Shown piece by piece: positions 2,965 through 6,998 of a DNA stretch of 64,000 bases. A program made the translations under genes and the position numbers. How positions within the stretch are numbered: the first letter of the stretch is position 1; the number at the start of each line of letters is the position of its first letter. This stretch comes from Blastocatellia bacterium (lineage in GTDB: Bacteria > Acidobacteriota > Blastocatellia > Chloracidobacteriales > JADJPF01), in NCBI GenBank assembly GCA_025057015.1, contig JANWYG010000009.1, positions 62,001 through 126,000 of the forward strand, in the 5' to 3' direction. The notes beneath the pieces are model-generated. The model saw only the letters and a list, made by a program, of their open reading frames with translations. It did not search any database and was not told the DNA's origin.

Positions 2965-3078
2965 CACTCATTGACGTAACCCTGCGAAGTCTAGGGGGCT
3001 TTTTCCGGTTGACTTTGTAATCACCTCTTTGTAATGTTGCAAACTAGCCATACTCAAAATCCAAATAGAGGTAAGAAG

Positions 3079-4035
3079 ATGAAAATAGGTATCCTAGTAG
3101 GTAGGGAAAATACTTTTCCACCAGCTCTTATAGAAAGGATAAACTCGCTCAACCGTGGCGTCACGGCCGAGTACATAAAAATAGGTGGGGTAAAAGAGAA
3201 GCAACCTTGCCCTTATAGGGTCATCCTTGACAGAATATCGCATGAAATTCCTTTCTACAGATCATACCTGAAAAACGCAATTCTCGATGGAGCTATAGTA
3301 GTCAACAATCCATTTTGGTGGTCGGCGGACGATAAGTTTTTCAACTACTCACTTGCAGCACGCCTTGGTGTTGCCATCCCGAAGACCGTCCTACTGCCGC
3401 AGAAAAATTACAAAGAAGGAGTCGTGTCCGAGTCGTTGCGTAACCTAGAGTTTCCACTTAAGTGGCAAGAAATAGTCGATTATGTAGGGCTACCTGCCTG
3501 GCTCAAGCCCCACGACGGTGGAGGTTGGAAGAACGTTTTTAAAGTCAAGTCTCTACGCGAGTTGATAGACGTCTACGACCACACAGATCAGTTATGCATG
3601 ACTCTCCAGGAACACATAGCATTCGACAGGTACGTTCGCTGCTACTGCATACGCCAAAAGTACGTGAGGATGATGCCTTATGATCCTGCCCTACCCTATC
3701 CAACCCAGTACATCAAAGTCAAGATAGAAGACTATATTGACAAGGACTTGCGCGATAGAATAGAACGCGATTGCATTACTATCTGCAAAGCTCTCGGTTA
3801 TGACATCAACACAGTGGAGTTCGCCATCAGAGATGGCATACCATATGCTATTGATTTCATGAATCCTGCTCCCGACGCAGATAACTTTTCAGTAGGTCTA
3901 GAAAACTTCGAATGGATGCTAACTCAAGTCTCCGAGCTGCTGATAGATTATGCACTGAACGGCGTGCCCACAAGAAAAGCCCATAGGTGGGACGACTTTC
4001 TAAATCAACAGATAGCTACTACCACTACAGCTTAG
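3079..4035 (+). CDS. ATP-grasp domain enzyme of unknown substrate
   Basis: I place the start at the ATG at 3079 because GAGGTAAGAAG lies directly before it. An upstream ATG at 3034 has no ribosome binding site. The resulting protein has 318 residues and begins MKIGILVGRENTFPPALIER. The N-terminal third is a pre-ATP-grasp Rossmann-like domain and the rest is an ATP-grasp fold, with a lysine-bearing strand (LPAWLKPHDGGGWKNVF), a mid strand (MTLQEHIAFDRYVRCYCI) and the late metal-binding strand (GIPYAIDFMNPAPDADNF, with D and N as likely Mg ligands). Such enzymes ligate a carboxylate to an amine or thiol. It is followed by a second, circularly permuted ATP-grasp gene, so the two probably act in one pathway. 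The substrate cannot be read from the sequence. Confidence 0.75.
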   Translation: MKIGILVGRENTFPPALIERINSLNRGVTAEYIKIGGVKEKQPCPYRVILDRISHEIPFYRSYLKNAILDGAIVVNNPFWWSADDKFFNYSLAARLGVAIPKTVLLPQKNYKEGVVSESLRNLEFPLKWQEIVDYVGLPAWLKPHDGGGWKNVFKVKSLRELIDVYDHTDQLCMTLQEHIAFDRYVRCYCIRQKYVRMMPYDPALPYPTQYIKVKIEDYIDKDLRDRIERDCITICKALGYDINTVEFAIRDGIPYAIDFMNPAPDADNFSVGLENFEWMLTQVSELLIDYALNGVPTRKAHRWDDFLNQQIATTTTA

Positions 4036-4087: not shown

Positions 4088-5443
4088 ATGGAAAAAATAC
4101 GTGAAGCAGTCGCCTACTACAACTCATTGCTCGAGCAAACTCCTTCCAGGATGGAGGAGCTACGCGACGTATTAACCGAAAAAATCAAGGAAAGAAAGAT
4201 GATTTTTGGCGGTAGACCACTGAGCCCCTACCTTCGTCCGCACTTCGTATCAGTAGAACAATGGGACTACATAAAGAGCGTCTGTCGCGTCATCTGGCGC
4301 TGCATAGAGAAGATAGGCATAGCAATTAAGGAAGATGTTAAGCTCCAAGATGAAATAGGCCTAAGCGCCGCTGAACGCGAGCTAGTAGCCATAGATCCAG
4401 GATTCAGCGGAATATCCATCAATTCCAGGCTGGATTCTTTTCTTACAGAAGATAGCTACCAGTTCGTAGAGCTGAATGCTGAAAATCCTGCCGGTATTTC
4501 TTATTGCGAGGTTATGGCAAAGATCTTTCTAGACCTACCAGTGATGAAAGAGTTCTCCGAACGTTTTGCAGTCTATCCACTCTATGCCAGAAAACACATG
4601 CTTGCTACTTTGCTCAAAGCCTACTCCGAATGGAGCAACAGTAGAAACGGCAAGCCCAAGATAGCCATAGTTGACCTACGAGGCTTACCCACGCAGTGTG
4701 AATTCGAACAGTTCCAAGAATTTTTCCGTAGCGAAGGTTATGAAGCTGAGATAATCCATCCTGATGAACTAGAATACTCCGGCGGCAGACTACGCCGAGG
4801 CGATTTTGAAATAGATATTGTCTACCGAAGGCTACTAGTAAACGAATTCCTAGAGAACATAGATACCGCTCGGCCATTACTTGAGGCATATCGCGAGCGA
4901 GCAGTCTGTGTTGTCAACTCTTTCCGATCCAAGTTCGTGCATAAGAAGATGCTCTTTGGGCTGCTGACTGATGAGAAAAACTCTACTCTCTTTTCTCAAG
5001 ACGAATTAGCTGCCATATCAAAACACATACCCTGGACTCGCAGGATGCGTGAATGTAAAACACTCTATGAAGGTAAAGAAATCGACCTCGTAGAGTTTGC
5101 TCGACAAAACCGTGAAATGCTCGTCCTTAAACCAAACGATGAATATGGCGGCAAAGGCGTATTCGTCGGCTGGGAGCTAGATCAGTCTCAATGGGATGAA
5201 GCAATACAAACTGCGCTCAATGGAGACTACCTGCTACAAAAACGCGTAGGTACAGCACGCGAGGTCTTCCCCTACTTCTCAGAAACGGGTGAGATCTCGT
5301 TCCTTGAACAGCTAGTCGATCTGGATCCTCTACTTTTCTATGGAGAAGTCCAGGGAGCTTTCACTCGATTATCCAGTACTTCGCTATGCAACGTCACTTC
5401 CGGTGGTGGTATGGTACCTACGTTTGTCATCGATAGAAAGTAA
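4088..5443 (+). CDS. Circularly permuted ATP-grasp family protein
   Basis: The protein has 451 residues. The N-terminal half has the pattern of circularly permuted ATP-grasp proteins, including DGFSGIS-like ([14 protein letters not shown]) and the acidic strand [19 protein letters not shown], where E and N are likely metal ligands. The C-terminal half carries the lysine strand [20 protein letters not shown], with a glycine-rich nucleotide-binding turn. This group is related to glutathionylspermidine synthase-like and peptide-ligase-like enzymes. An AGGAAGGTAGAT ribosome binding site precedes the ATG. The gene lies downstream of another ATP-grasp gene and 9 bases before the UshA-like lipoprotein. 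The substrate is unknown. Confidence 0.75.
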
Positions 5444-5452
5444 AGGAGATGT

Positions 5453-6544
5453 ATGCGATATCTGAGAATAATCTTGCTTACTCTAGCAGTCGCCTGTGGC
5501 AGCAACATTTCTAAGATCGATCTCGCTGCTAAATCTGCAAACATAGACGCAGCCCAGCGAGGTACCACTTTGGAAGAAAAGCTAGGAGTAGATGATCGGG
5601 CAGCAATAGCATTTCTCTATGGAGCTGACATGATGGGCAATCTAGACACCTGTGGCTGACATGCCCGCCCTTTGGGCGGTCTAGCACGGCGTGCTAGATA
5701 TGTAGAAGCATTCCGAGAAAAGTTCAAAGATATCGCTACGCTACACGTAGACATAGGGCATATCTTTCAGGAAGACTTTAGTGTGCCCCTGCGAGAAGAC
5801 TTTGAGGTCATGAACAAGTGGGTGCTTAAAGGATTCAGCCGCTTTAAACTAGATGCGGTTAACCTTTCCCACCATGACCTGGCATACTGCACTTATGCCT
5901 TTGGAGCAGCATTTAAACAACTATCTCAAGAAACACCAGTGATAGAAAATCTTATCACTGCAAATGCTGCTCCCTCAACACCCGACAAGACGGTAGCTAC
6001 CCCAAAACCATATCTGATAAGCGAGGTTACCCTGCCTAGGCTCAACAGAAGACTAAAGGTTGGCTTTATAGGACTTACCGAAGAACCAATTAGCTCGAAT
6101 CCTAACAGGGCCTTCGTAGTAGTAGATCCAATCCAGCAGCTTAAACAAGTGCTGCCGCAAGTGCGTGCCAAGTCTGACTTAGTAGTAGTGTTGGCATACG
6201 TCAAACCAGATGTAGCAAAGCAACTAGCTCAGCAAAATGCAGGTATAGATGTAATTCTAGCAGCAAATCACTTGGCACAACCGCCCGATGCTTCTCGCGA
6301 AGGTAAGACTATAATCGCTTATGCTTGGCAACAAACCAAGAGCATAGGCGAACTGAGGCTATATTTAGACTCCTCAGGCAAAGTAGTCGATTACATGAAT
6401 CGCTACTTGGTACTAGACAAATCAATACCAGATGAACCCGAAGCTGCAAAGCTCGTCTTACAGGCGAAAGCAGCTATAGATGAAGCAAAGTCCCATATGG
6501 ATAAAAAGGCAAACACTACAAGCATTGCAAGGCCAGGCTTCTAA
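5453..6544 (+). CDS. UshA-like lipoprotein, candidate selenoprotein with in-frame UGA (Sec69)
   Basis: I read one gene of 363 residues through an in-frame TGA at 5657-5659, although the two halves look like separate frames (5453-5659 and from 5672). It starts with a lipoprotein signal (MRYLRIILLTLAVACGS, lipobox LAVAC) behind an AAAGGAGATGT ribosome binding site. Around the TGA the sequence is GNLDTCG-U-HARPLGGLARRARY. From family memory, UshA-like metallophosphoesterase relatives have a Cys-Gly-Cys at this place, before the same PLGG.ARR segment, and an UshA-like (seleno)protein group has been named. A SECIS-like hairpin follows at 5680-5698. Later family landmarks remain: NLSHHDLAY, ILAANHLAQPP and a C-terminal strand region ending in a 'LVLDKSIPDEPE' segment. 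Several expected metal ligands of 5'-nucleotidases are altered, so phosphatase activity is doubtful. The alternative is a nonsense mutation. Confidence 0.78.
5657..5659 (+). other. In-frame UGA, proposed selenocysteine codon
   Basis: The TGA is codon 69 of the UshA-like gene. It follows TGT GGC (Cys-Gly) and precedes CAT GCC CGC CCT TTG GGC GGT. Coding sense with unchanged base composition continues for 294 codons in the same frame. Confidence 0.75.
5680..5698 (+). promoter_or_regulatory. Candidate bacterial SECIS hairpin
   Basis: TCTAGCAC / GTGCTAGA form a perfect 8-bp stem closed by the 3-base loop GGC at 5688-5690. The loop begins 29 bases after the UGA, and its first two bases are G. Known rules for bacterial SECIS elements ask for a small apical loop 16-37 bases downstream of UGA with a G in its first two positions, so both conditions are met. 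A second hairpin (CCGCCC/GGGCGG, loop TTT, 5665-5679) lies between it and the UGA, but its loop has no G and is too close to the UGA. SelB binding is inferred only. Confidence 0.65.
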
Positions 6545-6545
6545 A

Positions 6546-6998
6546 ATGCAAGACCTTACTAAGATCCTCCCACAACTTCTGAAAACTGCGAATTGTAGCG
6601 ATGATTTCGTCGAAAGTGCTTGCATATTTGCCTGGAAGATGTCAGCAGGGGAAGCAGTATGCCATGCGACGCTACCTTTTAAGCTCGTCAAGAGAACCTT
6701 TCTCGTCAAGGTATCCGACGAAACTTGGAAAAAGCAGCTACAACTTATCTCCGGTCAACTTCTCTTCAAGATAAATGCTCTATTAGGAACGCCCCTAATT
6801 ACTCATATAGAATTCTTAGTAGACGCCGAGGCGGTAAAACGTGCTAGAAAGGCAAAATCTTTCTCCCCAACAGAAGCATATCTCGATCCAGAACTTGTCA
6901 AATTCTCAAGCGTCATTCACGATGAAAGTCTACGCGAGCAGTTCCTAAAAGCAGCCAGCAAGTACCTACAAGCACAGCAGCAGACAAGCAAGCTTTAA
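6546..6998 (+). CDS. dciA: DciA family protein (DUF721), probable replicative helicase loader partner
   Basis: I start this gene at the ATG at 6546, one base after the stop of the UshA-like gene, rather than at an ATG inside that gene. The product has 150 residues. The core matches the DUF721/DciA pattern: W at 'IFAWKMSAGEAVCHATLPFKLVKR', then the 'TFLVKVSDETWKKQLQLIS' strand-helix and 'LFKINALLGTPLITHIEFLV'. DciA proteins bind DnaB helicase and single-strand DNA and are the ancestral helicase operators of bacteria that lack DnaC. The C-terminal 50 residues are a variable, probably disordered tail. The gene is convergent with the NtrX-type gene, overlapping its end by 4 bases. The family call is good and the role is by homology. 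Confidence 0.72.
   Translation: MQDLTKILPQLLKTANCSDDFVESACIFAWKMSAGEAVCHATLPFKLVKRTFLVKVSDETWKKQLQLISGQLLFKINALLGTPLITHIEFLVDAEAVKRARKAKSFSPTEAYLDPELVKFSSVIHDESLREQFLKAASKYLQAQQQTSKL

Follow-up and report, generated by a model that had tools for sequence, protein, structure and literature searches.

The forward-strand reading frame at positions 5453 to 6544 of a 64,000-nucleotide stretch of a Blastocatellia bacterium contig (referred to here as the window) is interrupted by a TGA triplet. This raises the question of whether the triplet ends translation or encodes selenocysteine (Sec) and, in the latter case, what the resulting protein would do. The relevant features are as follows.

3034 to 4035, forward strand: upstream neighbor without a Pfam match, in conserved synteny
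4088 to 5443, forward strand: upstream neighbor encoding a circularly permuted ATP-grasp-like protein, in conserved synteny
5441 to 5452, forward strand: Shine-Dalgarno stretch AAAGGAGATGT, overlapped by the stop of the ATP-grasp-like gene (from reading of the sequence)
5453 to 6544, forward strand: predicted UshA-like selenoprotein gene, 363 amino acids, with Sec as residue 69 and a TAA stop at 6542 to 6544 (NF041198, E = 3e-36; AlphaFold pLDDT of 92.7)
5453 to 5500, forward strand: predicted N-terminal export signal or membrane anchor (MRYLRIILLTLAVACG) with an uncertain lipobox (from the translation and a PROSITE-type pattern)
5651 to 5659, forward strand: Cys67-Gly68-Sec69 motif (TGT GGC TGA), C-G-[U/C] being invariant in the alignment
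5657 to 5659, forward strand: putative selenocysteine UGA codon, in a column with UGA or a Cys codon in all motif-bearing homologs and UGA in the syntenic orthologs
5665 to 5679, forward strand: second hairpin CCGCCC-TTT-GGGCGG with a perfect 6-bp stem, between the UGA and the SECIS stem
5680 to 5698, forward strand: predicted bacterial SECIS hairpin with an 8-bp stem and a GGC loop (folding, rules, and covariation)
6546 to 6998, forward strand: downstream neighbor of the DciA family (PF05258, E = 2.5e-8)

A single gene with an internal UGA codon

Translation of the region yields a single frame of 363 codons, in which the TGA at 5657 to 5659 is the sole internal stop, and AAAGGAGATGT, directly 5' of the ATG at 5453, represents a good ribosome-binding site. 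A standard ORF caller splits this gene in two, with the second frame starting from a TTG codon at 5672. A previous reading of this DNA, made from the sequence alone, had joined the two adjacent frames into one gene and predicted that standard gene callers would split or truncate it; both statements agree with these results. Searches of the window against Rfam and of the window protein against Pfam produced no matches, and the numbers of promoters and terminators were no higher than in shuffled sequences.

A search for relatives of this gene across the phylum (297 genomes) and the order (14 genomes) found many. Of the 49 loci aligned, the window gene and 46 further ones contain the motif, and in all 47 the codon at the site in question is either UGA or a Cys codon. 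The remaining two are L040, a fragment that lacks the motif, and L048, a canonical nucleotidase paralog from the same genome. The proposal of the sequence-only reading that Sec replaces a Cys of the relatives is thus supported by all 46 other motif-bearing homologs; these are phylogenetically nonindependent, although a quick tree requires at least five changes between Sec and Cys. No other sense codon appears at this site in the motif-bearing rows. The invariant positions of the alignment are C67, G68, C/U69, P73, G75, G76, G102, N171, and L321, and the window protein shares with the NF041198 family the segment CG[U/C] followed by PxGG.aRR. The two syntenic orthologs (L055 and L062), at ∼50% identity, both have UGA. 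Past the UGA, the window gene differs from them at 120, 79, and 192 and at 124, 90, and 194 sites of the first, second, and third codon positions, respectively. This third-position excess indicates that there is one coding frame, in which constraint continues beyond the UGA.

The SECIS hairpin

The putative SECIS element is formed by TCTAGCAC (5680 to 5687), the loop GGC (5688 to 5690), and GTGCTAGA (5691 to 5698), which make up a perfect 8-bp stem spanning the codons L-A-R-R-A. The loop begins at the 29th base past the UGA, leaving 28 nucleotides in between, and the stem-loop energy is −11.1 kcal/mol. The rules for bacterial SECIS elements (spacing of 16 to 37 nucleotides, loop of 3 to 9 nucleotides, a G in loop position 1 or 2, and a minimum free energy of −7.5 or lower; PMC13188914) are all consistent with these values, and an energy of −10 was reached at ∼3% of the codon positions drawn at random from these genes. 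The hairpin occupies the same position across the Sec homologs, and its covariation at synonymous positions is far above that in shuffled alignments.

The covariation test relied on two stem pairs in which both bases are third codon positions, where mostly protein-neutral changes are possible. Among the 25 UGA rows, L040 included, these two pairs were of the Watson-Crick type in 46 of the 50 cells (mean of 18.8 and maximum of 31 in 20,000 shuffles), one pair appearing as GC, AT, or CG and the other as CG, GC, AT, or TA. Among the 23 Cys members, Watson-Crick pairs filled 11 of the 46 cells, which is the chance level (shuffle mean of 12.5). Pairing in the Sec homologs and its chance level in the Cys homologs argue that the RNA structure itself is under selection, so the hairpin noticed by the sequence-only reading holds up by its coordinates, by the SECIS rules, and by covariation. 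Such a test of synonymous sites offers a clean way to call SECIS elements in the UshA-like family.

The same trend was seen in a wider set of 76 BLAST-confirmed UGA genes gathered by a UGA-anchored DNA pattern (41 and 38 versus shuffle means of 23 and 19). It is weaker there because of Myxococcota members without a hairpin at that place: many of the UGA members from this phylum (L093 to L172) lack one at the position used in Acidobacteriota. The statement on SECIS is therefore restricted to Acidobacteriota and similar members, and the SECIS elements of those Myxococcota genes must be located elsewhere or have a different form.

Selenocysteine machinery and the status of the UGA codon

The window comes from a genome of 3.33 Mb (97% complete) that encodes SelA (546 bits), SelB (416 bits), and SelD (357 bits), as well as a tRNA-Sec with the anticodon UCA that was called by both Infernal and ARAGORN, so the machinery that the sequence-only reading had named as decisive for its proposal is all present. 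A second tRNA-Sec-like match proved to be a tRNA-Ser and was rejected. The selD gene (L050; G000:C5:10711-11637, minus strand) has its own in-frame UGA in the motif VACGGU, where CGGU is the usual Sec site of SelD, which independently points to the decoding of UGA as Sec in this genome. Across the sampled genomes, selA was found in 51 of 52 genomes with a UGA-bearing match versus 141 of the 245 others (Fisher P = 4.5e-10); the genomes are nonindependent, and the position of the TGA was checked only in the loci whose sequences were retrieved.

If the gene were a pseudogene, the UGA would have arisen from a Cys codon as a true stop, with the rest of the gene decaying, or would be a sequencing error. 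The Cys-coding duplicate in a sister genome (L056 in G302) does place Cys forms nearby. However, 363 codons without a second stop, the UGA shared with syntenic orthologs at ∼50% identity, the covarying SECIS hairpin, and the complete Sec machinery make this origin extremely improbable, and the same TGA in orthologous loci speaks against the sequencing error that would have undone the sequence-only reading. Equally improbable is a UGA that works as a real stop, with translation restarting at the TTG codon at 5672 to give two polypeptides. A frame starting from this TTG exists, but such an arrangement would break the invariant CG[U/C]-PxGG segment in two, whereas the relatives, including all Cys forms, have a single continuous frame and the AlphaFold model presents one domain that is confident across the site. 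Judging from its sequence and that of its relatives, the region from 5453 to 6544 almost certainly encodes a selenoprotein, with the UGA at 5657 to 5659 specifying selenocysteine. In the likely course of events, SelB carrying Sec-tRNA(Sec) would bind the hairpin at 5680 to 5698, and the ribosome would read the UGA as Sec.

Family placement and gene neighborhoods

UshA-like (COG0737) selenoproteins with a CxU motif were reported in the 2008 GOS survey (PMC2398784) and are also listed in reviews (PMC9312934 and PMC13188914), so the window gene is not a newly discovered kind. Its protein matches the N-terminal domain of the NCBIfam model NF041198, UshA-like (seleno)protein, PCGU (profile positions 21 to 269, 125 bits), with Cys-Gly-Sec at the same place and the same exchange of Sec and Cys; this profile match and the motif position both sustain the assignment made in the sequence-only reading. 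The motif reads TCGU in the window protein and PCGU in NF041198. That model has a length of 519, part of which is a tetraheme cytochrome region at the C terminus; the window protein lacks this region and contains no CXXCH heme motif. Owing to the lack of this region, the score falls far below the model cutoff of 275 bits, as do those of the sister orthologs (115 to 119 bits), while the tested tetraheme members score 263 to 276 bits. Annotation based on this cutoff should therefore miss the window gene, which means that the curated model for naming such genes fails to reach it.

The window gene is a cytochrome-less member of the known UshA-like CxU family, and such members are common: 51 of 76 UGA members have no heme motif within the stretch read (some of these stretches being incomplete). 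Of 35 aligned members, 13 have a fused tetraheme domain of the Cytochrome_C554 type, and the quick tree requires a minimum of six changes in cytochrome presence. A related domain is described by NF049981, UshA-like (seleno)protein family 2, to which the window protein has a weak match of 28 bits against a cutoff of 140; the motif listed for that family is CxxU rather than CxU. The literature searched contained no paper that addresses the function of NF041198.

The order of the genes for the protein without a Pfam match, the ATP-grasp-like protein, the UshA-like protein, and DciA is kept in the window genome and in two genomes of its family, and the DciA gene adjoins the UshA-like gene in six compared loci, including the window. 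Neither the ATP-grasp-like nor the DciA neighbor is a redox gene. Further members of the family adjoin genes for ResB and cytochrome c assembly. At L085:3523-6415 and L086:5700-8583, a Cys-type UshA-like gene is followed by genes for MauE and a glutathione-peroxidase-like protein; Tat-like genes are close by.

Fold, metal site, and export

The AlphaFold model and its matches to CD73, YfkN, UshA, and SoxB (PDB matches with E values of 1e-20 to 1e-16 and a query TM score of ∼0.6), along with profile similarity, point to the calcineurin-like fold of the 5'-nucleotidases and SoxB. Unlike these enzymes, the window protein has almost all metal ligands replaced and contains the extra CGU segment; the C-terminal nucleotide-binding domain of the UshA-type nucleotidases is absent. 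The dinuclear ligand set (ND.H, GD, GNH, H, GH.H) is not preserved: in the eight columns that hold the ligands of the canonical paralog L048, the window protein has D, M, H, H, H, Y, N, and L. The alignment and the model show a calcineurin-like nucleotidase domain with a decayed metal site. Since the ligand columns are scattered across the alignment, while C-G-[U/C] is invariant, the loss is a trait of nearly the whole CGU/CGC family, and the window protein is not the odd member that the sequence-only reading took it to be. Of 48 rows, 40 retain an Asp or Glu in the first ligand column, and His is kept at two ligand columns in 10 and 14 of 48 rows; some members may bind metal, possibly through Cys or Sec.

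The N terminus suggests export of the protein across the cytoplasmic membrane, to its outer face. Its previous description as a lipoprotein did not find support. The PROSITE-type lipobox pattern fails because Arg5 lies within the excluded stretch (a weak test, as the pattern is negative for nearly all rows), and a Cys for a lipobox is missing from the closest orthologs, which makes an uncleaved anchor just as likely as a lipoprotein.

Putative function of the Cys-Gly-Sec center

In the UshA-like family, an invariant Cys-Gly-Sec/Cys center is set in a dead nucleotidase fold, to which many members have a tetraheme cytochrome fused. A Cys-Gly-Sec motif is likewise found in the redox proteins of the Sep15/SELENOF type, which have an unrelated fold. 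The Cys67-Gly68-Sec69 segment near the old active site can be expected to be the conserved working center of the protein, in which Cys67 and Sec69 most likely cycle between the selenol/thiol and selenenylsulfide forms. The protein would then act on thiols or peroxides as a redox enzyme, or it would relay electrons. The fused relatives probably exchange electrons with the tetraheme c-type cytochrome that they carry; the shorter form in the window would need a separate electron partner.

Alternatively, the protein could be a selenoprotein in which the CGU pair serves as a metal ligand in a rebuilt hydrolase site, similar to that of SoxB or UshA, and not as a redox couple. The fold and profile matches to metal-dependent nucleotidases and SoxB, the acidic residue at the first ligand position, and the separation of UshA-like proteins from families with a conserved Cys-based redox motif in the GOS paper (PMC2398784) are in keeping with this option, but the scatter of the remaining ligand columns and the tetraheme fusions or adjoining redox genes of the relatives speak against it and make it unlikely. 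A redox role of the Cys-Gly-Sec center, suggested by the motif, the fusion, and the neighbors, is probable. The redox-active pair envisaged in the sequence-only reading has gained strength from the fused cytochromes and the redox neighbors in relatives, with its chemistry still being a matter of deduction. An extracytoplasmic selenol-thiol redox protein built on a dead nucleotidase scaffold appears to be the best functional reading. It can be suggested, more tentatively, that the cytochrome-less branch missed by the annotation models might constitute a new class of extracytoplasmic selenol-thiol oxidoreductases with a dead nucleotidase fold and a separate electron partner.

A Sec-to-Cys switch in a sister genome

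Two copies of the gene are present in the genome G302: L062, which has UGA and occupies the syntenic locus, and L056 (L056:175-1392, on G302:C25), which has TGT and lies at a different locus. The Cys-coding duplicate has a complete 7/7 SECIS hairpin and, in the quick tree, is nested in the Sec clade that contains the window gene. The intact hairpin and this nesting indicate a recent change from Sec to Cys that left a SECIS relic; L056 thus captures such a switch, with its SECIS element now useless.
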